From Lepidostoma basale (taxonomy: Eukaryota > Arthropoda > Insecta > Trichoptera > Lepidostomatidae), in NCBI GenBank assembly GCA_022606425.2, contig JAHDVF020001254.1:124001-188000 (forward strand): a stretch of 64,000 bases of DNA, in the 5' to 3' direction. The notes under the pieces are model-generated. The model was given only the letters and a program-made list of their open reading frames with translations. It was not told the origin of the DNA and did no database searches. Shown here one piece after another: positions 635 through 59,085 of this stretch. The number at the start of each line of letters is the position of its first letter. Positions within the stretch are counted from its first letter, which is position 1. A program made the position numbers and the translations under genes.

Positions 635-1434
635 AATTAATACGAATGAAAATGATTTTTTTTAGAAATTTTATTATATTTTATGCGAATGACGTGTTTC
701 GCCTGTCTAATGTATTGTGGGGTTAACAAATCATGCAGGACTTTGAGACCACACGAGTGGAGGCAATGGACTCAGACTGCTGTACCAGCATATTACAATA
801 ACGAAATACATTGCATGGACAATCAAAACACCTGACACAATAGATTCTCAGCCTAACGAAGCCGACGACCGAGTGCGAAAAATGATGAATCAGGGCCCGG
901 GTTCATACACAAAGGTTACTAGAGGTTGTCCGGCTGAGTATCGTGTGCAAAGGAAGCAAAACATATAAAAGCTGTACAGCCCACCACTCTACACGCCAGT
1001 CATTGATATGACTTCTAACAGACACGAGTCTACGTTATAAAGGCTATGTCACGAGGGATCTCGGACTCCCTCCCGCTGATCTACCCTTTTACGTCGCGTA
1101 GCTTCGGGTAAGTCTTCGCTTCAACTGAACGACACTACCGCCTAGCGTGACATCGTCATCAACTGCTCGCCGCCCGGACTCCGCCCCGCTGCTATCGACA
1201 CCCTGTGAAGTTACTCTGTCACCCATCCACGCTCCCTTACGAGTACATAATACTATTAATGTATAATTACTTGTGATCGAGAATAAACGTTGAAACTTCC
1301 TACGCCTTTCAACCATCACCACACCCCCAAAGTGGTGACCTCTCCTGACCCCCAAAGTGGTGACCCTTAAGTATTATCAAATGAAATATATGATATTGCC
1401 TTAGGCGGGCGAAATTCTTTTTTTCATTCGTATT
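635..1434. repeat. PAL-P palindromic element interrupted by an LTR-like insertion
   Basis: The left arm (about 637-705) and right arm (1366-1434) are inverted copies that begin with an ATTCGTATT-type end. Each carries the PAL-P core, GCC..TTAGACAGGC-GAAAC in the left arm on the minus strand and a decayed form in the right arm. Other PAL-P copies join the two arms through a short loop containing GCATTATCAAATG. Here about 660 bp with LTR features separates the arms, so a nested insertion is the simplest reading. Confidence 0.55.
708..1365 (+). mobile_element. Probable solo LTR with leader sequence
   Basis: The segment sits between the two arms of a palindromic element. It contains a TATA-like box near 964 (CATATAAAAG), a poly(A) signal AATAAA at 1282-1287, and an 18-bp direct repeat with the core CCCAAAGTGGTGACC at 1323-1340 and 1348-1365. 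Such TGGTGACC sequences are common just after the LTR of insect BEL/Pao and gypsy elements, where the tRNA primer binds. No gag or pol coding sequence is present. The exact LTR ends and TSD are unclear. A minus-strand ORF of 88 codons here is judged a by-product. Confidence 0.4.
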
Positions 1435-1580
1435 AAATATTTAATTATTTAATTGTTCAATAAAAAATAAATAATCCACGTAAATCTTTCTCCTTTCGTT
1501 ACATTGTTTGACAAGTACAGAAAATATGCACCAAATGTAACGAACATAATAATTTATAAAATAATTGAATAATTATCAAA

Positions 1581-1840
1581 AATAATTAAATAAAATGACG
1601 TTATTTTATTTACTATTTCCACTTATTGACTTCATTACGACAGCGACCGGTTTTGCCAGGCTAGCTGGCATTAACATTCCCAGGTCTGTAGTATAGCTTC
1701 GTCTGTCGATGCCAGCTAGCCTGACAAAACCGGTCGCTGTCGAAATTAAGACAACAATTGGAGGTCTTTTATAAAGAGAATATCGTTTTATTTAATTACT
1801 ATTTAAAATAAACTTCCATCAAGAGATTTCAGTAAAAACA
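1581..1840. repeat. PAL-A palindromic element with hammerhead-like core
   Basis: The inverted arms are centred near 1690: GCGACCGG..GCCAGGCTAGCTGGC (about 1642-1672) pairs with its complement at about 1709-1740. The outer arms carry the family's ATAAAACGATG-type end. The right side continues past the arm into the family's one-sided extension (ACTTCCATCAAGAGATTTCAG, about 1811-1832). The sequence is decayed but clearly the same family as 3152-3408 and 9937-10095. Confidence 0.7.
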
Positions 1841-2008
1841 ATAAAATATCGTTAAAATATTTTTTTTAATTTTAGTAATCTAATTTATTATTATTGATTT
1901 TCTACGCAAATATCATTCACAGTTGTTATAATTTGGTCAATGATATGTAAAACTTACCAACACAAAGTTTTTAGGGCATTTTCTGTTATGAATTCTTGCC
2001 TATATTGT

Positions 2009-2154
2009 TTAACGCTTATCGACTTCAAATATACCTCTATCAGGGGCACAATTTGTATACACACCTTCTGTATTCGCCTCTAAGCTATTCCGTACCGAAT
2101 TCACTTTAAACTCCGTATCAGCAATTCCCAAATTATTCCTATTACAAATTAGAA
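2009..2154 (-). CDS. Candidate terminal exon, unknown protein
   Basis: On the minus strand a TTGATTTCTAG acceptor (AG at 2155-2156) opens 2 nt plus 47 sense codons ending in TAA (2009-2011). The predicted peptide starts LICNRNNLGIADTEF and ends CAPDRGIFEVDKR, with two cysteines and normal composition. A canonical AATAAA lies about 120 nt downstream (minus strand, 1884-1889). The entry phase requires one base from an upstream exon. It lies outside recognised repeats and on the same strand as the signal-peptide exons at 41.2 and 44.7 kb, but nothing proves they belong together. The protein family is not recognised. Confidence 0.35.
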
Positions 2155-2159
2155 CTAGA

Positions 2160-2475
2160 AATCAATATTCCTTGAACTAGACATTACTACACAGAAGAAA
2201 TTCGTATCATCTAAAAATAATCTCTGCTCAAAGCCATATCACCTGGTTCACGGTTAAATCCTCAATAATGTCATTTGTTATTAAAAAAGCTTAATTATTT
2301 TTATGACGAAATATAGCACAAAGACCATATAATTCTACATTGCTGTAATTTTTACTATGTTTTTTTGAGAATTAACACTTTCATTGAGAAATATTTAGAA
2401 TAATAGGTAGGAACCTCAAATTATGTCTTATTTAAATATAACTTAACATTTTTGTAATAAATTATTACAATTTTA
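2160..2475. other. No gene or repeat recognised
   Basis: AT-rich sequence upstream, on the minus strand, of the terminal-exon candidate. It would be intron if that exon is real. Confidence 0.4.
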
Positions 2476-2655
2476 CTAATCATCACGCCATCTCTCCGAA
2501 GGGGTAGAGCATTCTTCTCTTTTCACCCCCGCAGGAGACGTGGTGTGATGGTTTGCGAACCTCATCGCCACCAATAGGCATCTCCCGCGCACACTACCAT
2601 CGTTCAACGTCTACAAAATAAATCCAAAATAAATATTATAATATAAAATGTAATG
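2476..2655 (-). mobile_element. SINE-T copy (tail shared with RTE-T LINE)
   Basis: Read on the minus strand this copy has a GGTGGCGATGAGG..GGTTCGCAA body, then a shortened junction to GGAGAGATGGCGTGATG, the RTE-T LINE end. The body matches 18840-19103 and 28601-28746. The upstream AT-rich leader of the 264-bp copy is also present (to about 2655). The tail is down to a single TTAG unit and no clear TSD was found. Confidence 0.7.
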
Positions 2656-2909
2656 TTCTTTTTAATGATGTACGTTTTGTCAGCAGGACGATCCGAACTT
2701 TTGTGTTTATTTATTTTATATTCCACTTATCCCCCCTTCCTTTAAATAGATGTAATAAGGCACTTAAAAAACAACACAAGCAAGAACTTTAAAATATTAT
2801 TTAAGAAATTATTCAAATTGTCATTGAAATAAATGAAAAATTTAGTACAACACCAGTCAAAATTATTTTATATAAACGAAAAAACTTATTTATATAAGTT
2901 TTTTATTAA

Positions 2910-3043
2910 CCATTTGATTGTTGCCGCACTACGAGTATATAATAGTTAATAACGTTTGTACTGTTTTGATGTTAAGATTATTCTTAACATCAAAACAGTA
3001 CAAACGTTATTTACTTTTATATAGTGCGGCAACAATCAAATGG
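2910..3043. repeat. 134-bp near-perfect hairpin (fold-back MITE)
   Basis: CCATTTGATTGTTGCCGC at 2910-2927 pairs with its complement at 3026-3043. Pairing continues to a 6-nt loop (ATTATT, 2977-2982) flanked by GTTAAG and CTTAAC. Both arms share AACGTTTGTACTGTTTTGATG. GTTGCCGCACTA at the end resembles sequence near some PAL-P copies (AATGTAGCAACAATCAAA at about 21846), so it may be a PAL-P derivative. The overlapping 60-codon ORF is only palindrome sequence. Confidence 0.75.
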
Positions 3044-3139
3044 ACCAAAATAATTCACTTATACACAAAATATCTCAAAATTTACGGAAGAACCACATGA
3101 ACCAAACCAAATTATCGAAATCAGAACCATTTTCTTGGC

Positions 3140-3420
3140 ATTTATTTTTGTGATAATCAAATGATTTTACTGAAATCTCTAGATGAAAGTTCATTTTAAA
3201 TAATAATTAAATAAAACGATGTTTTTTAACTACTTCCACTTTGGACTTTATTTAGACAGCGACCGGTTTCACCAGGCTCGCTGGCATCGACAGACAGGTC
3301 ACCAGTCTGCACCAGTCTGTCGATGCCAGCGAGCCTGGCGAAACCGGTCGCTGTCTAAATAAAGACAAAAGTGGAAGTAGTTAAAAAACATCGTTTTATT
3401 TAATTATTATTTATTTTTGT
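3140..3420. repeat. PAL-A palindromic element, nearly intact, with TSD
   Basis: The arms run from about 3202 to 3408. The right arm holds the core: CTGTCGA (3317-3323), T, stem GCCAG/CTGGC (3325-3329 with 3335-3339), GAAA (3340-3343), C, CG, GTC (3347-3349). The left arm holds the inverted copy, with GGTGAAAC in place of GGCGAAAC. ATTTATTTTTGT occurs at 3140-3151 and 3409-3420 and is the likely 11-12-bp TSD. Between the left TSD and the palindrome lies a ~50-bp extension (3152-3201). The same extension, inverted, ends the copy at 9937-10095. The heptamer differs from the hammerhead consensus CTGANGA at one position. Confidence 0.75.
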
Positions 3421-6497: not shown

Positions 6498-6950
6498 TAT
6501 TAACTGTTAAAATTCGTAACACTGTTATTTTTTTTTTTTTTTCAAAAGACTAATACCAAGGATTTTAATCAATGATATTAGAATTTATTTTACAATCTTC
6601 AATGTGAGCAGAAAAAAGCTCATTATTATGAAGAAGGAATCTTGTCGTGTCCAGGCTTGAACCCATGTCCCCTGGATCAGGAGCCAAGCGTTCTATCCCC
6701 TAGACCACCACCCGATCACAATTTGAATTATTCATTTTTTGACTGCCGCGACAGCTGTTTTGCCAGCCGATATTTCCATCATCAGGCGTTACAAACAACT
6801 GTAGATTAAAAATTGAAATTAAAAATGAAAATTTGTTTGTTACAACCAGATCGGTTGGCGAAACAGCTGTCGTGATACTCAAAAAGTTTATAATTAAAAT
6901 GATCTTATCATCACAGTGTTATAATTTGTAACAGTTAAAAATGTTTTAGC
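6498..6950. repeat. PAL-B palindromic element carrying a SINE insertion
   Basis: AACTGTTAAAATTCGTAACA (about 6501-6520) pairs with TGTAACAGTT (about 6926-6936). The inner arms carry the core on both sides: on the minus strand CCTGATGATGG..GGCAAAACAGCTGTC (about 6748-6788), and on the plus strand GGTTGGCGAAACAGCTGTC (about 6853-6873). A tRNA-type SINE (6528-6716) interrupts the left arm. Confidence 0.7.
6528..6716 (-). mobile_element. tRNA-derived SINE with poly(A) tail
   Basis: On the minus strand there is an A-box TGGTCTAGGGG (6697-6707) and a B-box GGTTCAAGCC (6654-6663) 33 nt apart, the spacing of a tRNA promoter, in a tRNA-like head. A non-tRNA body and a run of 15 A (6528-6542) follow. 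It lies inside PAL-B. It is not a functional tRNA because the 3' acceptor half is missing. Confidence 0.7.
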
Positions 6951-9924: not shown

Positions 9925-10107
9925 CTTAAGATATTTAAATAAAACGACTGGTACTGTCGATGCCAGCGAGCCTGGCGAAACCGGTCGCTGTCTAAATAAA
10001 GACAAAAGTGGAAGTAGTTAAAAAAACATCGTTTTATTTAATTATTATTTGAAATGAACTTCCATCAAGAGATTTCAGTAAAATCATTTGATTATCTTAA
10101 GATATTT
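9925..10107. repeat. PAL-A single-arm copy with 12-bp TSD
   Basis: CTTAAGATATTT at 9925-9936 and 10096-10107 flanks the insert 9937-10095. The insert has only one arm: CTGTCGA, T, stem GCCAG/CTGGC, GAAAC, CG, GTC (about 9955-9987), then ATAAAG..GTTTTATTTAATTATT, then the ~45-bp extension ending CATTTGATTAT. The left end is cut inside the arm, as in a 5'-truncated retroelement. The TSD fixes both ends exactly. Confidence 0.8.
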
Positions 10108-10699: not shown

Positions 10700-10945
10700 T
10701 TAATTCAGATTGTTTTTAAAATTCACAAAAACGTGTATGATGTAAGTTGTTAACCGAGTAATTGGAAACAACCCGAGTTATTGATTGTAACACCTGACGA
10801 TGTTAACATCGGTTAGCGAAACGGCTGTCGCGACAATTTTGAAAGAAATATAATCAATTGTGATATTCTATACAGTGTTTTTATTTACACAGTTAATAAT
10901 GTTGAAATATCAAAGTCTTTCCGCCAAAACAATGGATTATTTAAA
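10700..10945 (+). repeat. PAL-B element, best plus-strand hammerhead-like core
   Basis: The core reads CTGACGA (10794-10800), T, stem GTTAAC/GTTAGC (10802-10807 with 10812-10817; one T-G wobble), GAAA (10818-10821), C, GGCT, GTC (10827-10829). ATTGT before and ACAAT after the core could form an outer stem I across an internal loop. The family extension (AATAATGTTGAAATATC..CCAAAACAATGGATTAT) follows at about 10895-10940. The left half is truncated. Confidence 0.7.
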
Positions 10946-10960
10946 AAAAATACTAACTAA

Positions 10961-11546: not shown

Positions 11547-12067
11547 GGGGCGCCGCACACTGGATCCTTTATAAATCTTAATTAATTGTTACGAGTATAA
11601 AGTGGTTTCGGATTTTTTGTTAGATGCATAAATATGCTAAAATCACTCCATTCTTTTGTAAAGGAACGCGATGCTCATTTATGCATCTAACAAAAAATCC
11701 GAAACCACTTTATACTCATAACAATTAATTAAGATTAATAATGTCTGCTGCTTTTAAACGAGCAGAGATATGAAGTAGATGTCGAAACAAGTAATGTAGA
11801 AGATTATATCTTCTATAATCCCTACTAAGTTTGGTTTTGACGTATCCAACTGATTCCGAAATAATTGCAAAAATCAGTTTTGCTTCATACAAAAAAAACA
11901 ATAACATTTTTTTTCTTGGAAATTAGCAGTTATATCAAGAAAATTTTAAATGTAAAAGGGGTTTGGAATCACACAAAGGACCTAATTTTAAAAAATCAGG
12001 GCAAAATTCGGAGTTCGACCCCTAAGTCCATGTTTTTGCCAAATGGATCCAGTGTGCGCCGGCGGGG
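11547..12067. repeat. Nested inverted repeats around a 163-bp perfect hairpin
   Basis: Inner hairpin: AATCTTAATTAATTGTTACG at 11574-11593 starts an arm of about 60 bp that pairs with 11677-11736 around a ~45-nt loop. Outer pair: CGCACACTGGATCC (about 11553-11568) is the complement of GGATCCAGTGTGCG (about 12046-12059), each flanked by GC-rich bases. The inner unit looks like a fold-back MITE. The outer pair may be the ends of a larger element. ORFs inside are by-products of the repeat. Confidence 0.6.
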
Positions 12068-12439: not shown

Positions 12440-12600
12440 ATACAAACTTCAAATGTTATATATTATTGATGTAAAACAATGATTTAAAACTCTACATTAA
12501 ATAATTATAGCGAATGAAAACTTTTCTAAAAGTTTTATTATATAATATTTTATGGAAATGCCATATTTCGCCTTGCTTATGCATATTGTACATAAAATCC
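12440..12600. repeat. PAL-P single arm
   Basis: AGCGAATGAAAACTTTTC, AGTTTTATTATATAATATTTTATGG, AATGCCATATTTCGCC (about 12510-12575): the family arm, with a worn core and no visible partner arm. Confidence 0.45.
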
Positions 12601-12985: not shown

Positions 12986-12996
12986 TATATAATACG

Positions 12997-14104
12997 TTAA
13001 TAGAGAAAAGTTGTGGGAAATATTGTCTGAATATGGAATAAGTACAAAACTGATCACGGCAATTAAGTCGCTATACACGGAAAGCACCGCTAGTGTCAGA
13101 GTAAATGGAGATCTTACAGCCTGGTTTGATATCAATAAAGGTGTCAAACGGTGTTGCGTAATGTCCCCGTGGTTATTTAATCTGTATATGGACAAATGTA
13201 TGAAAGAGCTGAAAGGGTTGGATGTAGGTGCCAAAATGAGCGGAGTGTCAGTAAGCTGTCTCTTGTATGCGGATGACGCTGTCCTTCTTGCAGACAACGA
13301 GCATGAACTACAAGTCCTGGTGAATTGTATGTATGAGGTATGCATGCGAAATGATCTGATGATGAATGTTAATAAGTCCAAGGTAATGATTTTTGAAAAG
13401 GAAGAAACCACGACAGTCTGCAACATTAGCGTGAATGGTGAAAATTTGGAGCAAGTAGTTGAGTTCGTGTATTTAGGTAGTATGTTTACAAGAGATGGGC
13501 GAGTGGAGAGGGATATTGAAAGAAGGGTTGGGGCAGGCAACAAAGTGAATGGTGCACTTAAAGTTGTCATCGCAAACAAAAACCTATCCAAAAAGCTAGA
13601 ATGGCAGTGCACAATGGTGTTCTTCTACCGACCCTTATGTATGGAAGCGAAGCATGGAACTGGCAAAAGAAGGATGAAAGTAGAATAAATGCAGTAGAAA
13701 TGAGATCTCTTAGACGAATGTGTGGATACTCTGTGTATGATAGAGTGTCGAATGAAAATATAAGAAGTGAATGCGGTGCGAATGATGGTGTCATGAACAA
13801 AATAATGAAAGGATCATTAAGATGGTTTGGACATATTAAAGAATGAATGAAGAAAGAATGGTAAAAAAATTATATGTTAATGATGTAAATGGAACCAGAA
13901 ATAGAGGAAGACCGAGGAAACGTGGCACGATCAAATAAATCAAATATTGAATGTCGGCCATGTGGGAGTCAGAGAAATCGACGCGCGTGCATGACACGAT
14001 GTATGAATGTTGAGGAAGCGAGAGAAATATGTCAGGAAAGAAAAGTGTGGCAGTCCATTCTTTCTGCCTACCCCTTCGGGGAGACGGCGTGATGGTTAGT
14101 TAGT
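12997..14104 (+). mobile_element. RTE-T LINE, longest copy: RT second half plus C-terminus
   Basis: This is the reference copy for the family. The first frame (13011-13594) encodes the late RT domain: GVKRCCVMSPWLFNLYMD (motif before the active site), then LLYADDAVLLADNE with the catalytic YADD at about 13264-13275, then KVMIFEKEE and VYLGSMFTRDGRVE. A 1-base loss in an A-run at about 13588-13593 shifts to the next frame, LMYGSEAWNWQKKDESRINA and RWFGHI. Further indels lead to RNRRACMTRCMNVEEA and SAYPFGETA, TGA, TGG, (TTAG)2. TAATACG at 12990-12996 and 14105-14111 is the probable TSD. The 5' part (endonuclease and early RT) is missing, so it cannot move by itself. The stop immediately before a simple-repeat tail and the C-terminal layout argue for the RTE clade or a close relative. 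Confidence 0.85.
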
Positions 14105-14111
14105 TAATACG

Positions 14112-14405
14112 AATGGATGAGCGAAGAATGGCTGGGGGTTTATATAGACCACTTTGGGAATCACTGATCTAGTTGCATGTATTAATCTTCTTCAGCCTTC
14201 TTCTCTCCACTGCATGCAACTAACTCAGTGATTCCCAATGTGGTCTACATAGAACCCCAGGAGTCTACGACAACTTGCAAGGGGTCTACGACATTTTTTT
14301 TTTAATTGGAGGTCCATTAGATGGTTCAACTAGATTAAAGCCGAATATTGAAACGCAAAACGAATATCGAAATCGTTGGCGACCTTTTTTTTAGCTCATT
14401 TGGGG
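14112..14405. mobile_element. Two hAT MITE ends, head to head, around a hairpin spacer
   Basis: CCACTTTGGGAATCACTG ends at 14166 and its inverted copy, CAGTGATTCCCAATGTGG, starts at 14226. Both are hAT-type ends matching 60841-61214. The 59-bp spacer is itself a fold-back (AGTTGCATG at about 14174-14182 with CATGCAACT at 14213-14221). The right part continues with GGGTCTACGACA, the family's inner sequence. Confidence 0.6.
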
Positions 14406-17685: not shown

Positions 17686-18047
17686 AATGATATTTTCTTC
17701 TATATACGCCATTTGTGTTGTTATGATGCTTTATTTCTCTTTTTCTTTTTTTATATACTTTGTATATACAACACTTACAATAAAAAATTAAATCATATAG
17801 ACATGTTTCGGACAACCAGTCTTTCTTCAGTGATACATATAAAGATACATTTTTAAAATATTATAAAATTGTTTACATGACCTGACAGATGTTATAAATC
17901 TTTATAACATCTGTCAGATCATGTAAACAATTTTATAATATTTTTTTAATGTATCTTTATATGTGTCACTGAAGAAGGACTGGTTATCCGAAACATGTCT
18001 ATGTTAATATATTTTTATTAAAAAGAAAGAGAAATAATGATATTTTC
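17686..18047. repeat. PAL-C palindromic element with TSD and 35-bp extension
   Basis: AATGATATTTTC at 17686-17697 and 18036-18047 is a 12-bp TSD. The insert begins with 35 bp not in the palindrome (17698-17732). Then come arms of about 145 bp that pair almost perfectly around CTTTATAACATC (17733-18035). Each arm has the core; in the right arm it is CTGAAGA (17969-17975), A, stem GGA/TCC (17977-17979 with 17987-17989), GAAA (17990-17993), C, AT, GTC (17997-17999). The left arm has the same core on the minus strand (about 17799-17830). The heptamer, GAAA and GTC all fit the hammerhead consensus. Confidence 0.85.
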
Positions 18048-20479: not shown

Positions 20480-20660
20480 CTTTCACTTGTTTTTACACCG
20501 TTTTAATTTTGTCAAACCCATAGGTTTTCCCTCCTACCTGGGCTTCGTCGGGGTTACAAAACAAACTGAGTTCGAACTGAAAACAGTTTGTTTTGTTACC
20601 CTGACGAAACTCCGGTGCGAGTTAAACCAGTTGGTTTGTCAAAAATAAGCAAAAGTATTT
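20480..20660. repeat. PAL-E short palindromic element with long stem III-like arms
   Basis: CAAACCCATAGG..CTGGGCTTCGTCGGGGTTACAAAACAAACTG is followed by the inverted CAGTTTGTTTTGTTACCCTGACGAAACTC. The plus-strand part CTGACGA, AACTC/GAGTT stem, AAACC-AGTT-GGTTT, GTC (about 20602-20640) resembles a hammerhead with a longer stem III, but the G of GAAA is missing. Confidence 0.45.
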
Positions 20661-21240: not shown

Positions 21241-21535
21241 TAATATAATAAATTTATTTTCAAGCCAATAATTGGTTTATTTATTTTGTGGCAAGATTAA
21301 TACCTGAACCCCAATAAAAACTTAAAATTATTATTTTAGATTTATTCAAAATATATTTGTTACAATAAATGCATAAAAGGTTCGAAAAACATCGTTTATC
21401 TATCAAAACTGACCACATTGATTAAGAGCTTTTGTATCGTGAAAAATGTTTGTTTTTGTTTTTAAATATAGGTTTATTTTAATATATTTTTTTTAATAAA
21501 TTGTTGTGTTACAAACTTACAAAAATATTGTTTAA
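21241..21535. other. No gene recognised
   Basis: AT-rich spacer with poly(T)/poly(A) runs. Confidence 0.4.
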
Positions 21536-21539
21536 AAAA

Positions 21540-21690
21540 ATTTAATGATTTTACTGAAATCTCTTAATCGAAGATCATTTTAAATAGTTATTTAATAACA
21601 CGATGTTATTATAATAACCATCCAGTCTGTGAATGCCAACCAGCCTATTAAAATCAATCGCATGTGTGATATTAAAAAACATGTTAATAT
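21540..21690. repeat. PAL-A, decayed copy
   Basis: Extension ATGATTTTACTGAAATCTCT, then AACACGATGTTATTATAATAAC and CAGTCTGTGAATGCC..CAGCCTATTAAAATC: the family order with the core mostly lost. Confidence 0.6.
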
Positions 21691-21734
21691 TTATAATAAC
21701 TATTATTTAAAAAAATATTCTGTTTAAGTGCGAC

Positions 21735-21880
21735 CTCTATCAGTTTATTACTTCTTGAACAATAAGTAAAAAAATCCATATTAAATTATATATACGAATA
21801 AAAACGTCTGTTTTCTTACGTTTTCTCTTACTATGGCATTATCAAATGTAGCAACAATCAAACGCATTGCTGTTTATATA
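21735..21880. repeat. PAL-P, decayed copy
   Basis: ATTACTTCTTGAACAATAAG (family extension), ATACGAATAAAAACGTCTG and ATGGCATTATCAAATGTAGC (about 21745-21850). Confidence 0.55.
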
Positions 21881-23739: not shown

Positions 23740-23905
23740 TAATATGTGAATATCATGGCATGATCATATGTGATGCATTTGATTATGCCTCAGACAGGCG
23801 AAACGTGTCACTCACATAAATTATAATAATACCCCAACCAAACAAACATTTATATTCCTATTACTTCATGGTTCAAGAACAATAAATTTTAAAAAAACGT
23901 TTCTC
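23740..23905. repeat. PAL-P copy
   Basis: Plus strand: TTTGATTATGCC, TCAGACA, GGCGAAACGTGTCACTCAC (about 23777-23818), then the extension-like ACTTCATGGTTCAAGAACAATAAA (about 23864-23888). The core fits GCC..GGC-GAAAC-GT-GTC. Confidence 0.6.
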
Positions 23906-25256: not shown

Positions 25257-25744
25257 GTTGCTTTTATCTAATCGATGTATGATTGAGTGTATAGAATTCC
25301 ATAATGAAAAGAAAATAAACAAAAGTTGTTTAAAAATAGAAGAACTAAAAATTCTATAAGTGATAAAAAATATTCACGACACGTGTTTCGTCTTATGAGG
25401 ACATCTTCGAGTGTGCAGGCTTTAGAATAATATGTTAATTTATATAGACTTTGGGGTATGTCCCCCCCCCCCCACTTCTACACAGATTATTTGTGGAAGT
25501 GGTTAACAATTAAAGGTGCATTGTAAGTTTAGTTTCTGGGTATTTCTGTGGATTCTAAAAATTCTAAGAATTTCAAAAATATGATGACAGGATTCTAATT
25601 AACATATTATTCTAAAGCCTGCACACTCGAAGATGTCCTCAAAGACGAAACACGTGTCGTGAATATTTTTTATCACTTATAGAATTTTGAGTTCTTCTAT
25701 TTTTAAACAACTTTTGTTTATTTTCTTTTCGTTGCTTTTATCTA
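25257..25744. repeat. PAL-F palindromic element with 14-bp TSD and 35-bp extension
   Basis: GTTGCTTTTATCTA at 25257-25270 and 25731-25744 is an exact TSD. The first 35 bp (25271-25305) are outside the palindrome. Arms of about 130 bp (from 25306 and to 25730) enclose a ~170-bp non-palindromic centre with a C13 run near 25459. Core in the right arm: CTCGAAGA (25626-25633), T, stem GTC/GAC (25635-25637 with 25644-25646), GAAA (25647-25650), C, ACGT, GTC (25656-25658). The left arm carries the inverted copy at about 25377-25412. The heptamer has one inserted C. Confidence 0.85.
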
Positions 25745-28227: not shown

Positions 28228-28480
28228 AACGAAATAAATATAACTGCGCTCAGTATTACAACACTTTATTTCACTTATAACAGATATGTTTCAGTTATAA
28301 CGCAACCTTTTTCAATGTTCTCAATTTTAACAATAAAAAAGAATAGAGTGATCAATTACACAAAAAAGGGGTAGAATAATTTATAAAGGTGGAAGTCTGT
28401 GATAAGTGAAATAAAGTGTTATAATACTAAGTGCAGTTATATTTATTCAAATATAAATCCATAACACGAAGTGTAGGCGA
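28228..28480. repeat. PAL-D palindromic element
   Basis: AAATATAACTGCGCTCAG..ACAACACTTTATTTCACTTAT (28230-28278) is inverted at about 28398-28455 (ATAAGTGAAATAAAGTGTTATAA..GTGCAGTTATATTTATTCAAATA). The left arm holds ACAGATATGTTTCAGTTATAAC, a worn core. An extension-like piece with AACACGAAGTGTAGGCGAAG follows, as in 20448-20470. Confidence 0.6.
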
Positions 28481-29755: not shown

Positions 29756-29807
29756 TTAAAAAAAAAAATTAAAAATATACATAAATATGTTTTATAAAAT
29801 TGATTTC

Positions 29808-29995
29808 GTTTTATCTCACTTAATTTTTAGTTTCGACCATTTTTGGCAGCTCGCTGCCATCTTCAGGTCTTCAGTCAGTAGGCTACCGAAACCGGTCGAA
29901 ATTAAAAATCAAGTGAAATAAAACTATATACAAATATTATAAAAGTTTTGTTTATAAATACTTACAAAGAACTTCCACCGAGAAATTTCATTTAA
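29808..29995. repeat. PAL-G palindromic element
   Basis: CGTTTTATCTCACTTAATTTTTAGTTTCGACC pairs with GGTCGAAATTAAAAATCAAGTGAAATAAAAC (about 29807-29930). Inside, CTGAAGATGGCAGCGAGCTGCC lies on the minus strand (about 29839-29861) and CTACCGAAACCGGTCG on the plus strand (about 29884-29899). The right extension (about 29930-29995) includes AACTTCCACCGAGAAATTTC. 48050-48150 is a second copy. Confidence 0.6.
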
Positions 29996-29999: not shown

Positions 30000-30320
30000 A
30001 TTAATGTTTTACAATTAAATTATATGATGCATTCACTAGAGTGTCTCTGCTTGTTATAAAATACAATAAACGAGATGTCAAAACAACGTTGCTGAACGTA
30101 TACGAGGCTATGTACATAGGAGCCTAACGGAAATATTTCACCACGGTTGATACTGCTCATGGAAAACTTTAAGTACATAAATGATATCCGTTTTTTCAAA
30201 TACTACGAAATGAAAATCATAAACAAAATTTAATGTATGAAGGTCTAAAGTGGAGTGAAAACACAAAAAAATGGTTTTAACAACTGTGGCTAAAAAACGA
30301 AAGATGAAATAATTAATAAT
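30000..30320. other. No gene supported
   Basis: AT-rich. A minus-strand 85-codon ORF (30138-30395) overlaps the PAL-P arm and has no clear family. Confidence 0.35.
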
Positions 30321-30327
30321 ACATAAT

Positions 30328-30505
30328 AAATTCGAATGAAAACGTCTTTCTAGAAATTTTATTCTATGAAACATTTGACAGGCAAGGCAAAACATGTCAT
30401 TCCCTTAAAATATTATAAAATTCCTAGACAACAAACGTTTTCATTCGAATTAATATTTATTATGGAGTCCTACATGATTGTTCAAGAAACACTCAATAAT
30501 AAGGA
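30328..30505. repeat. PAL-P palindromic element, both arms
   Basis: AATTCGAATGAAAACGTCTTTC (about 30331-30352) pairs with AAACGTTTTCATTCGAATT (about 30433-30451). The core between is GACAGGC..AAAACATGTCATTCCC (about 30376-30403). The extension (GTCCTACATGATTGTTCAAGAAACA) follows at about 30467-30492. Confidence 0.65.
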
Positions 30506-35689: not shown

Positions 35690-35895
35690 ATTACTAAAAT
35701 CTCTTGATGGAAGTTCATTTTAAATAATTATTAAATAAAGCGATGTTTTTTTTAAAACTGCTTCCACTTTTGTCTTTATTTGGGCAGCGACCAATCTATC
35801 GACGCCAACGAGCCTGGCGAAACCGTTTGCTGTCGAAAAAATGGCTAAAGTGTTAGTTCTTAAAAAACATCATATTATTAATACAATATACGAGT
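35690..35895. repeat. PAL-A, two-arm copy with shortened centre
   Basis: Extension CTCTTGATGGAAGTTCATTTTAA, then AAGCGATG..CTTCCACTTTTGTCTTTATTTGGGCAGCGACC, and GACGCCAACGAGCCTGGCGAAACC (about 35809-35832), with the right arm decayed. The left core is deleted. Confidence 0.65.
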
Positions 35896-36415
35896 ATTAT
35901 AGCAAAAATTGTCACCATCAGTAAAATAAAATCATTTGAATAATAGTATATTTTTACTGAATAAAGCTTCGCCGACCACACTGCCGGGTATTAACCATAT
36001 TTTTCACGCACAGGCTCGGCCGGTCTGTGACCTTGTGCTTCATTGTAATTAAAAACTTGACCACTTCCCTTCCACGATTATGAATGATCTCATAAATTTT
36101 AAGAGAGTTTTATTTAGAAAGCTCAAATGCATGGACGTGAAAAGGAAACGCCTCAGGGCTGGCGACTGCACACCCCAATAATAAATTGTATATACAATAT
36201 AAACGCCATCTGACAATGGTCCAAAATAATTATTTTCACCCTTCAATTGCCGATACTGTGTAGCTAGTACAAATTGCTTCGAATCCCTTTAAAGTAATAA
36301 AAACAAATTATAATATATCTAAATTCTTTCGATACATTATACATTTAGCTAATATAATACATATTTTTTATAATAACTTATATTTCTATAAATCATCTGT
36401 TCTCTAGAGGTTTCA
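35896..36415. other. No gene supported
   Basis: Contains a higher-complexity stretch (35965-36260). On the minus strand an AG acceptor-like site followed by ATGGCG (about 36206) gives only 18 codons before a stop. Nothing assignable. Confidence 0.35.
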
Positions 36416-36929: not shown

Positions 36930-37085
36930 ATACGTTTCGCCTAGCTATGAGACATGTCATTCCCATTAAAAATGTACAATAAAACTTTTAGAAGGGCGAC
37001 GTATCCATCCGTATTAATTATTACATATAAAGTTTTACATCAGTATTATAGATACAATAATAATAATAAATAGTGGATTAATATC
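36930..37085. repeat. PAL-P copy
   Basis: ATCGCAATGATACGTTTCGCC..TGAGACATGTCATTCCC, AATAAAACTTTTAGAAGGGCGACG and ATCCGTATTAATTATT (about 36938-37022): arm order of the family, worn core. Confidence 0.5.
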
Positions 37086-38230: not shown

Positions 38231-39558
38231 TATACGAGGTCTGTTCAAAAAGTATCGCGAATTTTATATTTTTTCAAAAAGTATTTATTTATTCATGAAT
38301 ATCTATTTTGTCCCCTTCAAAGTAATTCCCCTCGGATATAATACATTTATGCCAACGTTTTTTCCAATCCTCGAAGCACTTAAAAAAATCATTTTTGTGA
38401 TCTTGTTCAGCTCCTCCTTCGATGCCGTCTTTATCTCCTCAATCGTGGCGTAGCGTCGTCCTTTCATGGGCCTCTTCAGTTTTGGAAACAGGAAAAAGTC
38501 ACAGGGGGCCAGGTCTGGGGAATACGGTGGCTGCGGCACCATTACTGTGTTGTTTTTGGCCAAATATTCGCGCACAAGCAACGATGTGTGAGCAGGGGCG
38601 TTATCATGGTGCAAAAGCCAGTTTTTGTTCTTCCACAAATCCGGGCGTTTCTGGCGGATTGCTTCGCGCAAATTGCGCATAACTTGCAGGTAATATTCCT
38701 TATTGACCGTACTACCCTGTGGCAAGAACTCATGATGCACCACGCCCCTGCAATCGAAGAAAACTGTGAGCAAAACCTTCACGTTCGACCGAACTTGGCG
38801 CGCTTTTTTTGGTCTTGGCTCATGCGGCAGCTTCCATTGGGATGATTGAGCTTTGGTTTCCACGTCATAACCATTAACCCATGATTCGTCACCAGTTATG
38901 ACCCTCTGGAGCACATTTGGGTCGTCACGGACCGAGTCCAACATCTCCTGAGCAATGTTAACGCGATGCTGTTTTGGTCGAAATTGAGCAATTTTGGCAC
39001 GAATTTCGCGGCGACCCGACTCATGCCCAAATCATTGGTTAAAATCGAATGGCACGAGCCAATCGATATGTTTAGGTCCTCAGCAACTTCTCTAACGGTG
39101 ATTCGACGATTGGCTAATACTATTTTCTTCACTTTATCAATGTTTTCGTCTGTTGTTGACGTGCTCGGGCGTCCGGCACGCTCTTCGTCGTTCATATCTT
39201 CTCGGCCCTCTGAGAACATTTTGTACCACCGATAAACGTTGCTTTGGTCCAAGGTAGCTTCACCATATGCCACAGTCAACATTCGAAATGCGTTCGCGCA
39301 CTTTATTTTGTTTTTCACACAAAATTTGATACAGATTCTTTGATCCATTTTTTGGAATAGGCAAAAATCGAAGACGAGCCAAAACACATCAAAGCAAAAC
39401 AGCTGTCAAAAATTAACTAAACATTCAAAATGGCCGACCTTGTCAGCATAAGTAAGGGACATGAGTACCAACATAACGCTACAAAAAAATCAAAAATCAA
39501 ATATACGTAGCCAGCGGAAATTCAAAATTCGCGATACTTTTTGAACAGACCTCGTATA
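38231..39558 (-). mobile_element. Near-complete mariner element
   Basis: Perfect 31-bp terminal inverted repeats, CGAGGTCTGTTCAAAAAG.. at 38235-38265 and its complement at 39524-39554, each flanked by TATA (38231-38234 and 39555-39558), which includes the TA target duplication of mariners. Total 1320 bp. It carries one transposase reading frame on the minus strand, broken in two places (see 38289-39348). No neighbouring gene belongs to it. Confidence 0.95.
38289..39348 (-). pseudogene. Mariner transposase, two single-base deletions
   Basis: The start ATG is at 39346-39348 (MDQRICIKFCVKNKIKCANA). The N-terminal part has two HTH domains (to about residue 110), including the VYRWYKMFSEGREDMNDEER region and ITVREVAEDLNISIGS. 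Catalytic residues are present: TGDESW, HHDNAPAHTS and YSPDLAPCDFFLFP. The last two aspartates are separated by 34 residues (DD34D). The WVPHEL-type linker is not obvious. One A is missing from an A-run (plus T-run 38972-38975), shifting the frame after LLNFDQ. A second A is missing near 38392-38396, shifting the last ~35 residues. With two frames corrected the length would be about 353 residues, normal for mariner. The element is therefore inactive unless supplied in trans. Confidence 0.93.
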
Positions 39559-42094: not shown

Positions 42095-42605
42095 AACAAC
42101 ATTGTAAACTGCCATTTTCGCTTTCATGTGCTCTCATTCATGTTCCCATTATTTAAAATAAAATACAAAAAACGGAATAGTGCGTCCGGTTAAATTAATT
42201 TTGAAGTACAATGCTATGCGAGATATAGACAGCGGAGTGACGTCGTCTCTCCCACGTTCGACATTTTCGAAAAATTGTGTTCTGCAATGCAGATGATTGG
42301 AAAACAAAATATCCCGTATTTTACATAAAGTTGCCGTTATCGAAGTTCACAAAGCCCTTTTATGAACACGGCACGTGGTGAGACTGTGTTATGTTCCAAT
42401 TAATCGCCTTGTATGCTATGCTCAGTTGTCAAACACCAACTGACCGAAACTGATGGCCACAATACAAAAGCATCAACCCTGCATTAAATTAAACGTAGAC
42501 CGATGATGGACATATCAAATGCTTTGGTTGTTACTTGCACTCGCAAAAAATCACTATTAAAAATTTAATTATTAACAAGAACTAGTATGAAGTATTGTTA
42601 TAAAT
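42095..42605. other. No gene supported
   Basis: Higher-complexity sequence at 42170-42500 without splice-flanked ORFs. It would lie in an intron or upstream region of the 41.2-kb exon candidate. Confidence 0.35.
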
Positions 42606-42609
42606 TAAT

Positions 42610-42785
42610 ATAATTATAATAGTCCATTGTTTTGGCCGAAACACTATGATATTTCAACATTATTAAATGTTTAAATATAAATCGCTGTTTATGGTATCAT
42701 AATTTTTTTTTAGTGAAAGCTGTTTCCTCAACTAGTTGTCGTCATCTATGTTGACATCATTAGGTGTTACAATAATTTTTTCAAC
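42610..42785. repeat. PAL-B copy, decayed
   Basis: Extension GTCCATTGTTTTGGCCGAAACACTATGATATTTC, then AAGCTGTTTCCTCAACTAGTTG and TTGACATCATTAGGTGTTACAA (about 42615-42773): the minus-strand core with substitutions. Confidence 0.65.
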
Positions 42786-42789
42786 TGTT

Positions 42790-43190
42790 CAAATTTATTT
42801 TAGTGATTTTTCGAACCTTTATGTGCATTAAACAAATTGCGAAAAATAATACATAATTGTGATAATAGAAACAGCGTTTTATATTTTTTACCGTTAATAG
42901 TTATAATGAGTATAGTTATATGGAATACTTCAGGAATATATTTAAATTTCAATTTCAATTTATTCAAAAAATTATAAACATTACAGAATAACACATCCAA
43001 ATCGTTTATAATCACAAAAATAAAAATAACAATTAAAAAAAACATATTTACAAATAATGTAACAAGAAAATAAATGAGAATAAGTCAGAAAAAAGAAAAA
43101 CCAAAGACAATTTAAAAAAAAAAATATTCGAGAACAGTTTGGTAAAGATTAACATTTTTGTACAATAAGTAATATATTGCATCATAGCTA
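42790..43190. other. No gene recognised
   Basis: Strongly AT-rich; ORFs here are low-complexity. Confidence 0.4.
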
Positions 43191-48160: not shown

Positions 48161-48174
48161 ATTTACAGTAAACC

Positions 48175-49010
48175 TAACATACTAACTGTAATGATATCAC
48201 AATTTTTATTATTCACTTTTAGAGTGTCCGACTGATGTTTCGCCAACCCGTGTTGGCATCATCAGGTATTACAAAAATCGGTTGTTTGTAACACATTATA
48301 ATGCCAATATCGCGACAGGTGGCGAACCAGCTGTCGCAACACTCAAAAAGTGAATAGTAAAAATTGTGATATCAGAACAGTGTTATAAATTTTAACAGTT
48401 AACCACTTCAATACCGCAAGGCCACTGGTCCCCGCTACGTAGGCGCACCATCAATACCGTAAGGCCACTTTGCAATAAAAATGATTCCAGTAGGAATTTA
48501 AAAAAAAAATTGTGTGGCTAGCGACGTCTTAACACTATCTCTGCAAGAAAAATTAACCTTCTGACGTTGGTCGATCTTATTGAAAAGGGGAGTTTTGTAG
48601 AAGTCGAAGAAGAAGAGATTGATATAATGGATCAAAAGGATATCGCTTGAAAGAATTAAATTTCAAGTGATAATAGGCAAGAACTGACAAAACATACTTT
48701 GATTTTTTAATGTTTGCTTTCAATAATTTTTTTTTTATATAAAAATGTTAAAATTATATTTATTAATGCTTGTGATAACTCTAAAAGAAAATTCAAATAT
48801 ACGAAATTTTGATAATTCTACTAAAAAAATTAAACTTGATATATCATTTTAAAAGTAAACTTTAAACACAATGCCCAAAATCTATTTTTTTATTGTTAAA
48901 AACATGCGGTATGTGAGTGTTTTTAAGCGTAAAACATCACGGTACTCAAACGGTTAATAATGTTGAAGTATCATAATGTTTCGGCCATAACAATACACAA
49001 TTCATGAAGT
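48175..49010. repeat. PAL-B element with best hammerhead-like core, split by a piggyBac-type insertion
   Basis: Left half: on the minus strand CTGATGA (48259-48265), T, stem GCCAAC/GTTGGC (48252-48257 with 48242-48247, loop ACGG), GAAA (48238-48241), C, ATCA, GTC (48230-48232). All three conserved blocks match the consensus. The right arm (about 48303-48398) has a mutated core (GGTGGCGAACCAGCTGTCG). The family extension resumes at 48958 (AATGTTGAAGTATCATAATG, then TTTCGGCC). The two parts are separated by 48403-48953. Confidence 0.8.
48399..48957. mobile_element. piggyBac-type non-autonomous insertion, TTAA TSD
   Basis: TTAA at 48399-48402 and 48954-48957. The insert 48403-48953 starts CCACTTCAATACCGC and ends GCGGT..ACTCAAACGG (complement CCGTTTGAGTACCG), imperfect inverted ends matching in about 11 of 14 positions. 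An internal copy of the end (CATCAATACCGTAAGGCCAC) lies at 48450. Inside, LLTLVDLIEKGSFVEVEEEE (about 48560-48620) may be a piece of a transposase N-terminus. Confidence 0.7.
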
Positions 49011-52257: not shown

Positions 52258-52432
52258 TATTAAATAAAACGATGTTGGTACTCTGTATATATTTTTCTAG
52301 CACACGTCACATATTAGGTGTTTGTATTTTGTTTAAAATATGTTGGTTAGTTTATATCGTTCTCCCGATGATGAATGTGTAAAACCTTCGAAACGCGTCG
52401 AAAAAAATTAACTCAAAAGTGTAAAAAACTGT
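52258..52432 (+). repeat. PAL-H single arm with hammerhead-like core
   Basis: CCGATGA (about 52363-52369), T, stem GAA/TTC with a long loop, GAAAC, GC, GTC (about 52385-52398). It is flanked by TCAAAAGTGTAAAAAACTGTG. Pairing is weaker than in PAL-B or PAL-C. Confidence 0.4.
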
Positions 52433-54965: not shown

Positions 54966-55110
54966 ATTGTTTCTTGAGCAATGATATAAAACTCCAACTC
55001 CATTAAATAATTATACTTATGACGTCTGTTTTCTAAAAAAATATTATATTTTATGTGTATGACAAGTTTCCCCTGTCTAAGGCATTATCAAATGTAGCGG
55101 TCAAATATTG
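54962..55110. repeat. PAL-P arm with extension
   Basis: ATTTATTGTTTCTTGAGCAATGATATAAAACTCC (extension), then ATGACGTCTGTTTTC, TATTATATTTTATG, GACAAGTTTCCCCTGTCTAAGGCATTATCAAATG. The core on the minus strand would be GCCTTAGACAGGGGAAAC-TT-GTC. Confidence 0.65.
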
Positions 55111-56645: not shown

Positions 56646-56649
56646 AGCT

Positions 56650-56835
56650 GGACGTAAGCATTCATGAGTTTATATTTATAAATATATTTCACTTTACGAT
56701 AATTGTGGTTTGAGCCGATACGTACGTTTTTCACCCCATCCTAGCAACGTGAAACATGTCACTAAATAAATATATAAAATTTCGAATGAAGGCTCAAATA
56801 TATATATTTTAAATTCGTCAAATGTCATCATAATG
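56650..56835. repeat. PAL-type copy, unassigned subfamily
   Basis: Plus strand: CACCCCATCCTAGCAACGTGAAACATGTCAC (about 56731-56761), then ATATATAAAATTTCGAATGAAGGC. The GTGAAACATGTC block fits the shared pattern and the ends resemble PAL-P. Confidence 0.4.
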
Positions 56836-56985
56836 TTCACACTATCAACCGACTTAAATTGTTAATGAATGCTTTATAATCATAAATTTTAAAAATTCTT
56901 TAGATTAACATAAATCGTATGTTGTCTTGTGAAGAATTTATTTCAATAGCTAATATTCTTACTTATTTTTTTTTCTTCGCATTGG
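56836..56985. other. No gene recognised
   Basis: AT-rich spacer. Confidence 0.4.
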
Positions 56986-56987
56986 TT

Positions 56988-57258
56988 TGCAGCATAGTCT
57001 TGCTTCTCGTCCTCAACTGCCCTCTGTCTTTAACTCTTCAGCTCAACATATGAGATACGGTTCACGTCCTCGTACACCTGTTTAAGATATTCCCGTCGGT
57101 GGCGCATCCTATAATTTATCACCCCATCCATCCCCTCTAGTTTGATGTCCAGGAGACCCTTATGGCGCATAATGTGTCAAATCCATTGGGTTCGCCTCTC
57201 TGAGATGGTTTTGATAAGTTGTCTCCCTTTTTCGATTTTACTGAGGACCTCATCATTT
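56988..57258 (-). mobile_element. RTE-8 LINE C-terminal fragment
   Basis: Minus strand: KNDEVLSKIEKGRQLIKTIS, ERRTQWI, stop, HIMRHKGLLDIKLEGM, then HRREYLKQVYEDVNRISYVE. This equals the RTE C-terminal order EVL.R, RR..WIGH..RH..LL..I.EG and Y..Q...D. Related to 22140-22525. Confidence 0.7.
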
Positions 57259-57259
57259 T

Positions 57260-57480
57260 TTATGTAGCTAACTCCAGGAAATTCTTTTTTTGTAGCACAT
57301 TATATATTTATCTTAAATATATATCCTTTGTTTCGAAATTATATCTTTCGTGTATACACCATGTCTCACAAACGAATATTAAGATGATCCATACATATGT
57401 TTTGTAAAGATGTTTTCGGAACTTAAGATCTACATTATTTGATATTAAATCTTTGATTTTTTGTTGAGCGCAAGCTTTGC
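57260..57480. other. No gene recognised
   Basis: AT-rich spacer; a 62-codon ORF is not supported. Confidence 0.4.
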
Positions 57481-57484
57481 CTGA

Positions 57485-57850
57485 TGTATCTTCTTTCTGT
57501 GTCTTGTCAGGTCTCCCGAACGGTGACTATCACCCTTGAATAGGCCTCATGGTGATGACCTGGGGAAAAATATCCAGAGTGGTATCCCCTTTCCTTCTCT
57601 GGAGAATTTTCTGTCGGGGTTACCTTCCTTTAGCTGGGTGTATCCAGTTTTATGACGCTGGAAGCTCGCTATTTGTCCTCTCTCTATCTGCTATGGTACT
57701 AAGTAATATGTACCACATTGCCCGGGGTTCGCGGGGTCTTTAAAAGACCTCTCGTGGACGCTAGAGAGTTGTACTTGATAGTAGTGTTGCTGTTGTAAAT
57801 GCAACATGGCGCCTTACGACATTTTGTAGAGGCTTATGTTCCAACAAAAC
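57485..57850 (-). mobile_element. SINE-K, inverted second copy
   Basis: Read on the minus strand it matches 53443-53833: CAACACTACTATCAAG, CGCGAACCCCGGGCAATG (57714-57731), GGAAGGTAACCCCGACAG (57614-57631), and the RTE-3 end with CCTGACAAGACACAG and AAAGAAGAT (57488-57512). The 5' limit is not defined. Confidence 0.7.
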
Positions 57851-58025
57851 ATACCCCATCGTAGCCCTTCTACCCTTTTGAACCCCTGATGCCTGATGCC
57901 TTGCCTAATGTATGCAGTTGTCAATTTCACTTATTGTTCGACTCGTACAATTCCATGTGTTCCTACTCCCAAGTACAAAATCTTTCGAGTTTTGCAGTGT
58001 GGCTCCTAACATAAATTTTAATAAT
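57851..58025. other. No gene recognised
   Basis: Short unassigned spacer. Confidence 0.4.
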
Positions 58026-58029
58026 TTCG

Positions 58030-58505
58030 TAATATAAATAAAGCATAAAAGGAAAAGTGTACCGAACCGCCGTAAGACCTGCTATGCTCTACGGATCGGA
58101 ATTCTGAGCCGCAAGACGTCAAGAAGAACAGAGGCCGCACGTAGCAGAAATGAAGATGCTGAGGTGAGTTACGATGCTGGATAAAGCTAGAATTGAGCAC
58201 AGGTAGCCTGAAAATCGCTCTCATAGCGGAAAAAACTAGGGAACGTCGACTGCAGTGGTACGGCCATGTGAGCAGGAGGGACAATGAATACATTGTTCAC
58301 AAGACCCTGCAACTGAAAGACGGAAAGAGGGGAACAGGTCGGCCTCCTGCAACGTGGACGTCCACAGTTAGGAAGGACCTGAAGGTGCTGGGACTGGACA
58401 GCCAGATGACCCTGGATCGTGAGACTTGGCGGAGCCGTATTAAGAGAGCCGACCCCAAACAACGGCAAATGGCTAGGCGAAAGAATAAGTAATATAAATA
58501 ATGCT
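58030..58505 (+). mobile_element. RTE-4 LINE 3' end
   Basis: Plus strand: RKSVPNRRKTCYALRIGI-like start, VAEMKMLR, then KTRERRLQWYGHVSRRDNEY, IVHKTLQLKDGKRGTGRPPA, TWTSTVRKDLKVLGLDSQMT, ETWRSRIKRADPKQ and a RRKNK end. The last 99 codons are open. This copy supplies the undisturbed sequence that defines the CR1 insertion site at 9157. Confidence 0.82.
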
Positions 58506-58920
58506 AATACTTTATCACTCGTTAATACAATGAAGTTCTACTTATGAAAAGGTACCTTTATAGTTCAAGTAGTTTCAAAACTATGAAACAAAGTTTAGAG
58601 CCTCGAACTTTCACTTAATCGAACTGAATGTTGCATATTCTAAACTTCTTAACATATCGGAACGGGCGATAACATCATATGAATAGAAGGTAAATTGTAA
58701 ACTTTAGCAGAACATATTCAAATACTGACAAATTCGACAAATATACTATACCAGGTCAATTCAAAATAGTACTCGTATGTGATTATTGAGGTGATGCTTG
58801 GCTAGAATTGTTGTACTTGTGTTCCTTAAATAAGTTCTTTATTCAAGTGAATTAATTTTAAAACCTTCAAATGTTTAAAAAGATACACAATTTGAATTTC
58901 ACGCTGAATGTGTAATTTAT
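58506..58920. other. No gene recognised
   Basis: AT-rich spacer. Confidence 0.4.
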
Positions 58921-58924
58921 ATGA

Positions 58925-59085
58925 TAATTAATACGAATGAAAAAATATGTCTTCTAGTAGTTTTATTACAATTTATGGTAATGACATTTTCACCTTTCTA
59001 AGGCATTATGAAATGTCCTGTCTTAAAATATCTGTTTACATTCGTATCATTATTCAAGAAACAATACATATGACGTATACGACTT
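58925..59085. repeat. PAL-P palindromic copy
   Basis: TAATACGAATGAAAAAATATG, AGTTTTATTACAATTTATGG, GACATTTTCACCTTTCTAAGGCATTATGAAATG and the inverted end ACATTCGTATCATTATTC (about 59038-59056), then the extension AAGAAACAATACA. Confidence 0.6.

Follow-up and report, generated by a model that had tools for sequence, protein, structure and literature searches.

Palindromic elements with a hammerhead-like core in Lepidostoma basale as probable ends of Penelope-like elements

The stretch of 64,000 nt from the trichopteran Lepidostoma basale that was analysed here (contig JAHDVF020001254.1, positions 124,001 to 188,000, hereafter the window) belongs to a genome of 769 Mb in 1,572 contigs and contains many short palindromic elements that share a core resembling the hammerhead ribozyme. 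These palindromes are very probably short 5′-truncated insertions of several families of Penelope-like elements (PLEs), which carry a putative minimal hammerhead module of the PLE type with possible cleavage activity. The pattern is real and is explained by known biology. The PLE setting of such hammerheads is not new, since minimal helix III-less hammerheads in the pseudo-long terminal repeats (pLTRs) of PLEs have already been published. The natural variants of the core and the rule that the linker in the core is palindromic are the less expected part.

A core shared by the palindromes

The first-pass annotation of the window had described approximately 25 palindromic elements in seven or more families. 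This is a fair description: eight families (A, B, C, D, E, F, I, and J) are legible, and 21 places are listed, many of them degenerate (Table 1). In the eight families, a CTGANGA-like heptamer is followed by one extra base (T or A), stem II, GAAAC, 0–4 bases, and GTC. The three copies named as best examples (48230–48265 on the minus strand, and 10794–10829 and 17969–17999 on the plus strand) are all present as described, and the proposed layout is confirmed as that of a type I hammerhead in minimal form, plus one additional base.

The core was counted by a strict scan (heptamer with at most one mismatch, stem of at least four pairs, and GAAAC), with the reversed sequence as the control. The scan covered the window and 22 loci, composed of 15 arbitrarily placed 10-kb stretches and seven 3-kb loci chosen for the motif; locus L003 was excluded owing to overlap. 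It gave 28 matches versus 0 in the reversed sequence. Genome-wide, the pattern CTGATGATN{8,24}GAAAC is found 10,929 + 10,979 times (21,908 in total) versus 65 + 51 times (116) for the reversed pattern, an approximately 190-fold excess. The pattern extended to GTC, CTGAAGAN{9,25}GAAACN{2,6}GTC, is found 7,693 + 7,507 times (15,200) versus 29 + 21 times (50), an approximately 300-fold excess. The recurrence of the core is not due to chance. A relaxed motif scan gave 35 real and 5 reversed matches, and its weak single matches are therefore distrusted.

The position of the extra base should be noted. In the type I hammerhead, stem II directly follows A9, whereas here the extra base intervenes. The gap between the heptamer and the stem is exactly one base in 24 of the 28 strict matches and in all 14 of those with a perfect heptamer. 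A GCC/GGC stem located one base after CTGANGA is found 2,453 + 2,440 times in the genome (4,893; 0 in the reversed control), whereas the same stem located directly after CTGANGA is found once (0 in the reversed control). Among the matches listed of the former search, the extra base is almost always T or A. The extra base is a constant feature of the core.

Look-alike motifs occur in sharks and frogs. Pattern scans of viral contigs for relatives of the motif gave 0 and 0 matches. No account of palindromic hammerhead elements in any insect was found in the literature, a weak negative, the subscription literature being mostly outside coverage.

Coding frames between family A arms

The hint of the first-pass annotation at PLEs is borne out by family A, the arms of which flank a frame encoding both reverse transcriptase (RT) and GIY-YIG domains. 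In locus L036, a frame of 758 amino acids lies between family A arms and matches RVT_1 (1.4e-13) and GIY-YIG (6.6e-5), giving the open reading frame (ORF) with PLE-type RT and C-terminal GIY-YIG that characterises endonuclease-positive (EN+) PLEs. In locus L037, GIY-YIG is found on both arms and RT on one of them. Where an organism is named among the best 120 protein matches of the PLE frame, it is a moth or butterfly, a locust, or a leaf beetle.

A genome search for GIY-YIG (PF01541, E ≤ 0.001, 150 of 541 candidates scored) gave at least 62 matches, including five close pairs, all of which have the minus strand on the left and the plus strand on the right. Twelve GIY-YIG loci were examined. 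Family A ends were found by BLAST in five of them (L029–L032 and L035); in L029, L030, L031, and L035, the distance from the GIY-YIG match to the downstream arm is approximately 460–540 bp. Another motif family is found in L027, and the motif is absent or only weak in L024, L025, L026, L033, and L034. The families had been regarded as separate, unrelated elements, but they look like one kind of element, that is, PLE ends. We infer that families B–F, I, and J are PLEs too, assigning them by their common anatomy and not by a linked ORF.

The best GIY-YIG match in L024 (contig C102, 1,639,099 bases) is a bacterial UvrC-like frame of 600+ amino acids, beside a FecR-like protein (named by eye). Because of these two neighbours, the contig looks bacterial, either from a symbiont or as an assembly contaminant.

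Arm anatomy

As read in the window and the 15 arbitrarily placed stretches, the motif faces outwards in both arms of the palindromes. Motif pairs no more than 200 nt apart, among approximately 100 matches listed, are arranged (−,+) in 14 cases, (+,−) in none, and on the same strand in two. The arms are unequal at their outer ends. BLAST of family A and B arms revealed two outer ends at a distance of approximately 45–55 nt, both of which are as a rule represented in a pair. In family A, eight of nine pairs consist of one short and one long arm, the ninth being ambiguous. In family B, 14 pairs were found, four of which are too short to judge, and eight of the remaining ten are asymmetric. All six family A pairs with ORF pieces (L029–L032, L036, and L037) are also of the short/long type; L035 and the extra lone arms of L030 and L032 stayed outside this set. 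Direct repeats of 11–12 nt near the ends are found in 3 of 21 elements versus 1 of 420 mismatched pairings, one of the repeats being of low complexity.

In L007 (1119–1599), L004 (1434–1697), and L020 (7443–8093), PLE ends abut directly, with different families in L007 and L004. These ends look as if one element had inserted at the end of another.

The anatomy bears on the possibility that the palindromes are DNA transposons of the miniature inverted-repeat transposable element (MITE) type, whose terminal inverted repeats share a hairpin by chance and contain no ribozyme. The elements are indeed short, AT-rich, palindromic, and high in copy number, and most copies read are without coding capacity. 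However, the ends are asymmetric in families A and B, with a tail on one arm, the near-end direct repeats have no fixed length, and single arms occur (9954–10103 and 10779–10946 in the window). Moreover, family A arms flank a PLE frame with RT and GIY-YIG. Because this frame lies between the arms, the MITE reading is already refuted for family A, and for the palindromes in general we consider it highly improbable. In annotation, such palindromes would be PLE ends rather than MITEs.

A type I hammerhead layout and short AT-rich units are also found in animal retrozymes, which consist of small tandem repeats bearing such a hammerhead, spread as circular RNA, and are reported to occur in insects (PMC7229834). 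In contrast, the copies read in this genome are centre-outward inverted pairs or single arms, with no tandem arrays of approximately 170–400 bp around a canonical type I hammerhead, and the core resembles the PLE form without internal stem III. We consider a retrozyme origin of the palindromes highly improbable.

Stem II and the self-complementary linker

Covariation in stem II was evaluated with 51 distinct sequences obtained by one search pattern, nearly all of the family B type, and 500 shuffles. Doubly changed cells number 27 versus 10.4 in the shuffles, and the covariation score is 0.302 versus 0.208; neither value is reached in any of the 500 shuffles, and slid versions of the stem score lower. 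Since the sequences derive from one pattern and are nearly all of the B type, this covariation is evidence for the family B type only. Single-strand folding of four motif stretches predicted the hammerhead fold in none of them. The family B stretch is predicted to form a plain extended hairpin (z −2.47), which is not transferable to family C by eye, and the other three stretches are without excess stability. Several window copies are too mutated for folding.

Stem III in cis is no longer than 2 bp. The stem III of 2 bp in the first-pass annotation would rather be one half of a self-complementary AC..GT through which two RNAs can pair. The letters from A15.1 to U16.1, which form the AC..GT linker, are self-complementary in all eight insect families tabulated: ACCGGT in A and E, ACAGCTGT in B, ACATGT in C, F, and K, ACACGTGT in D, and ACGCGT in I. 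Each linker was taken from the best copies of the family, and family J, a single mutated copy, stands outside this set. The chance of all inner linker pairs matching is approximately 1e-6 under equal base use with the families treated as independent, a figure weakened by the kinship of PLEs. Further types among the genome-wide matches listed have ACATGT, ACTAGT (a single match), or, when read to the first GTC, ACGT as their linker. The linker of family M, GAAACGTCGGTC, is self-complementary only with the first GTC. Non-self-complementary linkers are found in single copies (48230–48265, L004 1529, L023, and some of the genome-wide matches listed). The self-complementarity makes a stem III between two RNAs possible, and the predicted ribozyme, if it cleaves, most likely does so as a dimer.

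Starts of the small copies

The inner ends were compared for 18 small family A arms; the ORF-locus arms of L029–L037, the long arm of L021, two tail-only pieces of L014, and one fragment of L013 were excluded. Ten of the 18 inner ends are located at −9 to 0 from C3, and none of the 18 arms begins at the cleavage site. The TATA sequence TATATAAA is found by eye approximately 30 nt upstream of the commonest inner end in family A, as a promoter in the pLTR. Since ten of the arms begin at or just before C3 and none at the cleavage site, the small copies seem to have been templated by uncut RNA, reaching from where transcription starts to the internal site where reverse transcription begins.

In a family B copy (L007 from 1507), A9, the extra T, and the next G begin a frame that reads M-P-T-S-V-G-E-T-A-V, close to the start of an Anolis PLE frame, M-P-A-I-D-V-G-E-T-S (both translated by eye). 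Its part in forming the start codon may explain why the extra T has been retained.

Proposed mechanism and points against it

A PLE protein would cut both target strands at AT-rich DNA. Each cut strand would then prime the RNA at one of two internal sites, and reverse transcription would run to the RNA 5′ end. The core would be a PLE-type minimal hammerhead a few nucleotides after this end, so that both cDNAs would stop just before it and might then be joined centre to centre. Two facing copies of this kind would have their sense strands running centre-outward in both arms, and the arm that starts further downstream would keep the tail of approximately 45–55 nt. The self-complementary AC..GT could give a stem III of double length between two RNAs.

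Several observations weigh against this reading. Only family A and, by proximity, the motif family of L027 are tied to a PLE frame, and the family B motif in L028 lies approximately 0.8 kb past a decayed GIY-YIG match. The search with the Rfam hammerhead models, suggested as a check in the first-pass annotation, gave no match in the window, either at gathering scores or with E relaxed to 10. Weak microRNA matches in the Rfam scan (MIR8675, mir-4680, mir-3017, and others) are taken as chance because they are on long palindromes and below gathering. Stem I is 0–4 bp, by eye 4 bp in family A and 1–3 bp in others, and the core letters are altered in families A and D. The covariation of stem II, another suggested check, is seen in the family B type by the two measures given above, whereas pairs with double change (3 versus 2.7) and further pair types (10 versus 9.2) are not above the shuffles, and the kinship of copies can inflate the positive measures. 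In the anatomy, two family B pairs in L020 appear to be long on both sides, and family F shows clear tail asymmetry in just 4 of 11 pairs, in part owing to a query that stopped at the tail (both by BLAST). The left arm of L036 is alignable beyond the short end through an AT repeat, and target-site duplications (TSDs) are visible in a minority of elements, including the one of low complexity. As to the priming, the explanation favoured in PMC3846280 for head-to-head inverted repeats is self-priming on an antisense template rather than two-strand priming. In PMC11167929, no difference in RT start was seen between the two strands, and the rule of one long and one short arm is therefore unexplained by the Anolis assay.

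Core-letter departures and the role of the module

The core CUGANGA ... GAAA ... UH is present in families B, C, E, and K, which retain the core letters, GAAA, and GTC (the searches fix most core letters). In family A, by contrast, 23 of the 24 copies anchored have T as the sixth core letter; 20 of these 23 read exactly CTGTCGAT, and one of the 23 is a shifted reading. One copy of the family A type with A6 (C11:879696) is found among the matches listed. To our knowledge, A6 is invariant in active hammerheads. A change at core position 6 is expected to cripple cleavage. Family D has TCGAAGA in both arms, in which positions 3 and 4 are changed. Family F mostly has TTGATAA: of its 24 anchored places, 14 carry T–A at positions 3 and 8, and the remaining 10 are mixed, several of them being misplaced anchors. 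U3–A8 in family F replaces the C3–G8 core pair, suggesting that the core pair matters.

These letters bear on whether the core is retained as a structure rather than as a catalyst within PLEs, where the hairpin and linker would dimerise the RNAs or bind the PLE protein and the hammerhead likeness would be ancestral. T6 in family A stands beside stem II, GAAAC, and the palindromic linker, all of which stay, and such a role would also accord with the changed positions in family D and the lack of family A arms starting at the cleavage site. Likewise, ribozyme mutants of Poseidon_Ac, a PLE of Anolis carolinensis, insert normally, and no reads end at the cleavage site (PMC11167929). On the other hand, the letters retained in B, C, E, and K, the U3–A8 replacement in family F, the existence of the A6 copy, and the cleavage of Poseidon_Ac RNA with its protein (PMC11167929) favour a catalyst. 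We regard a purely structural role as possible but on the unlikely side.

The statement in the first-pass annotation that the core is needed for the life cycle of the elements is not established, in view of T6 in family A, the small arms, and the unchanged insertion of the Anolis mutants in vitro. Family A, with an intact-looking frame, has T6 and points in the same direction as the Anolis result, so that cutting may not be what insertion needs. A tentative and rather unlikely extension is that the function conserved in the hammerhead module of PLEs is RNA pairing and not cutting: the linker would join two template RNAs in one ribonucleoprotein, and each target strand would be primed on its own RNA, resulting in centre-outward palindromes. 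If so, family A would be a natural experiment, in which amplification continued with U6, stem II, the palindromic linker, and an intact-looking RT-endonuclease frame, and U3–A8 in family F would be a compensatory change of the core pair that arose naturally. This one genome, whose tens of thousands of matches belong to roughly twelve motif types (perhaps including subfamilies), several with altered core letters, offers natural mutants for distinguishing catalysis, dimerisation, and protein binding as the target of selection.

Copies in the window

The window copies are listed in Table 1. The features of the left and right arms of the family E pair are joined in one form among the genome-wide GAAACN{2,6}GTC matches.

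Table 1. Positions of the palindromic elements, single arms, and neighbouring mobile elements in the window
Feature	Positions	Strand	Description
Family A inverted pLTR pair (PLE remnant)	3140..3413		Tailed left arm ends at 3140, tailless right arm ends at 3413; motifs 3293-3266 (−) and 3317-3344 (+)
Family A inverted pair, older copy	1572..1858		CTGTCGATGCCAG..CTGACAAAACCGGTC
Family A single arm with tail	9954..10103	+	Motif 9954-9981
Family A inverted pair, degenerate	21531..21742		
Family A inverted pair, degenerate	35691..35942		Tail assignment ambiguous
Family B single arm	10779..10946	+	Motif 10794-10829: CTGACGA T GTTAAC..GTTAGC GAAAC GGCT GTC
Family B inverted pair	48165..48385		Motif 48265-48230 (−); linker not self-complementary in this copy
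Family B inverted pair	6721..6900		Both arms with linker ACAGCTGT
Family B inverted pair, degenerate	42599..42908		
Family C inverted pair	17779..18019		Both arms with motif; 17969-17999 (+): CTGAAGA A GGA..TCC GAAAC AT GTC
Family D inverted pair	25303..25733		Both arms TCGAAGA T GTC..GAC GAAAC ACGT GTC
Family E inverted pair	29790..29944		Left arm CTGAAGA T GGCAGCGAGCTGCC; linker ACCGGT in right arm only
Family F inverted pair	30304..30479		Right-arm linker ACATGT
Family F arm	630..716	−	GGCGAAACACGTC
Family F arm	23776..23866	+	TTGATTA T GCC..GGC GAAACGTGTC
Family F arm	54980..55095	−	TTGATAA T GCC..
Family F arm, degenerate	58924..59017	−	
Family F arm, degenerate	12478..12584	−	
Family F arm, degenerate	36949..37040	+	
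Family I motif	52365..52399	+	CCGATGA T GAATG..CCTTC GAAAC GC GTC
Family J inverted pair	28233..28447		TTGAAAA A GGTT..AACT GAAAC on the minus strand from 28315; linker mutated
Mariner-like element	38231..39558		Approximately 1.3 kb; matching terminal inverted repeats; Transposase_1/DDE_3 frame
Non-LTR RT fragment	12993..13688		RVT_1

The core had been described as common to the palindromes. This holds in the eight families, but other palindromes contain it in part or not at all. The near-perfect palindrome at 2936–3023 is without any part of the core. In another near-perfect palindrome (11569–11741), GAAAC is present, whereas the heptamer and GTC are absent, and the palindrome at 14132–14260 has a heptamer-like piece and no GAAAC. 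The arms of the palindrome at 20503–20648 contain CCTGACGAAAC / CCCGACGAAGCCC with no stem II ahead of GAAAC; this palindrome is perhaps a deletion derivative of a PLE end.

The window is also rich in pieces of non-long terminal repeat (non-LTR) retroelements, and a mariner-type transposase is present. Many related non-LTR 3′ pieces have a ACCCCTTCGGGG hairpin followed by GTTAGTTAGTTA tails at the end.

Comparison with known systems

The type I hammerhead of newt and axolotl retrozymes has a short helix III and is more active as a dimer (PMC7229834), but it is found in tandem repeats and circular RNAs, in contrast to the inverted PLE ends described here. Closer in form are the PLE hammerheads with diminished stem III (Cervera & De la Pena 2014; Lunse, Weinberg & Breaker 2017), which are located in pLTRs, are dispersed in animal genomes, and have been proposed to cleave as dimers (as cited in PMC7761336 and PMC6155905). 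Minimal hammerheads without helix III in PLE pLTRs are also described in PMC11167929. The insect module is like these small PLE-associated variants in being a minimal type I hammerhead in PLE pLTRs. The role of hammerheads in PLEs has been termed a mystery (PMC7761336).

The Penelope families of the rotifer Adineta vaga resemble the insect elements in their anatomy. They have inverted pLTRs, a 31-bp tail on one of them, and TSDs of 8–10 bp, and the pLTR includes TATA, an initiator (Inr), and the first 12 ORF codons (PMC3846280). Head-to-head inverted repeats with palindromes at the junction are also described there. The inverted pLTRs, the one-sided tail, and TATA in the pLTR are common to both, and the direct repeats near some of the insect ends may correspond to the TSDs. 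In the available text of PMC3846280, the hammerhead is mentioned 0 times, and several of the families are single- or few-copy, unlike the insect elements.

The closest counterpart is Poseidon_Ac. In vitro, both target strands are cleaved and extended, and the hammerhead is located at the ORF start; reverse transcription starts internally approximately 111–118 nt after AUG, with an optional tail of 30–40 nt (PMC11167929). Its RNA cleaves only with its protein, and a single change of C3 or G8 abolishes cleavage while leaving insertion in vitro unchanged (PMC11167929). Cleavage has been assayed in Poseidon_Ac, whereas the insect module is a candidate recognised from sequence, and most of the insect copies read take the form of tiny inverted pairs. 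T at position 6 is a feature of insect family A, unlike Poseidon_Ac, and the Poseidon_Ac linker is ACGU, whereas the insect linkers are 6–8 nt. Nevertheless, the printed template of Poseidon_Ac, CUGAGGA U GCC...GGGC GAAAC GUC (PMC11167929), contains the same parts as the insect copies: the heptamer, one extra base, which makes AUG, stem II, GAAAC, and a self-complementary linker.

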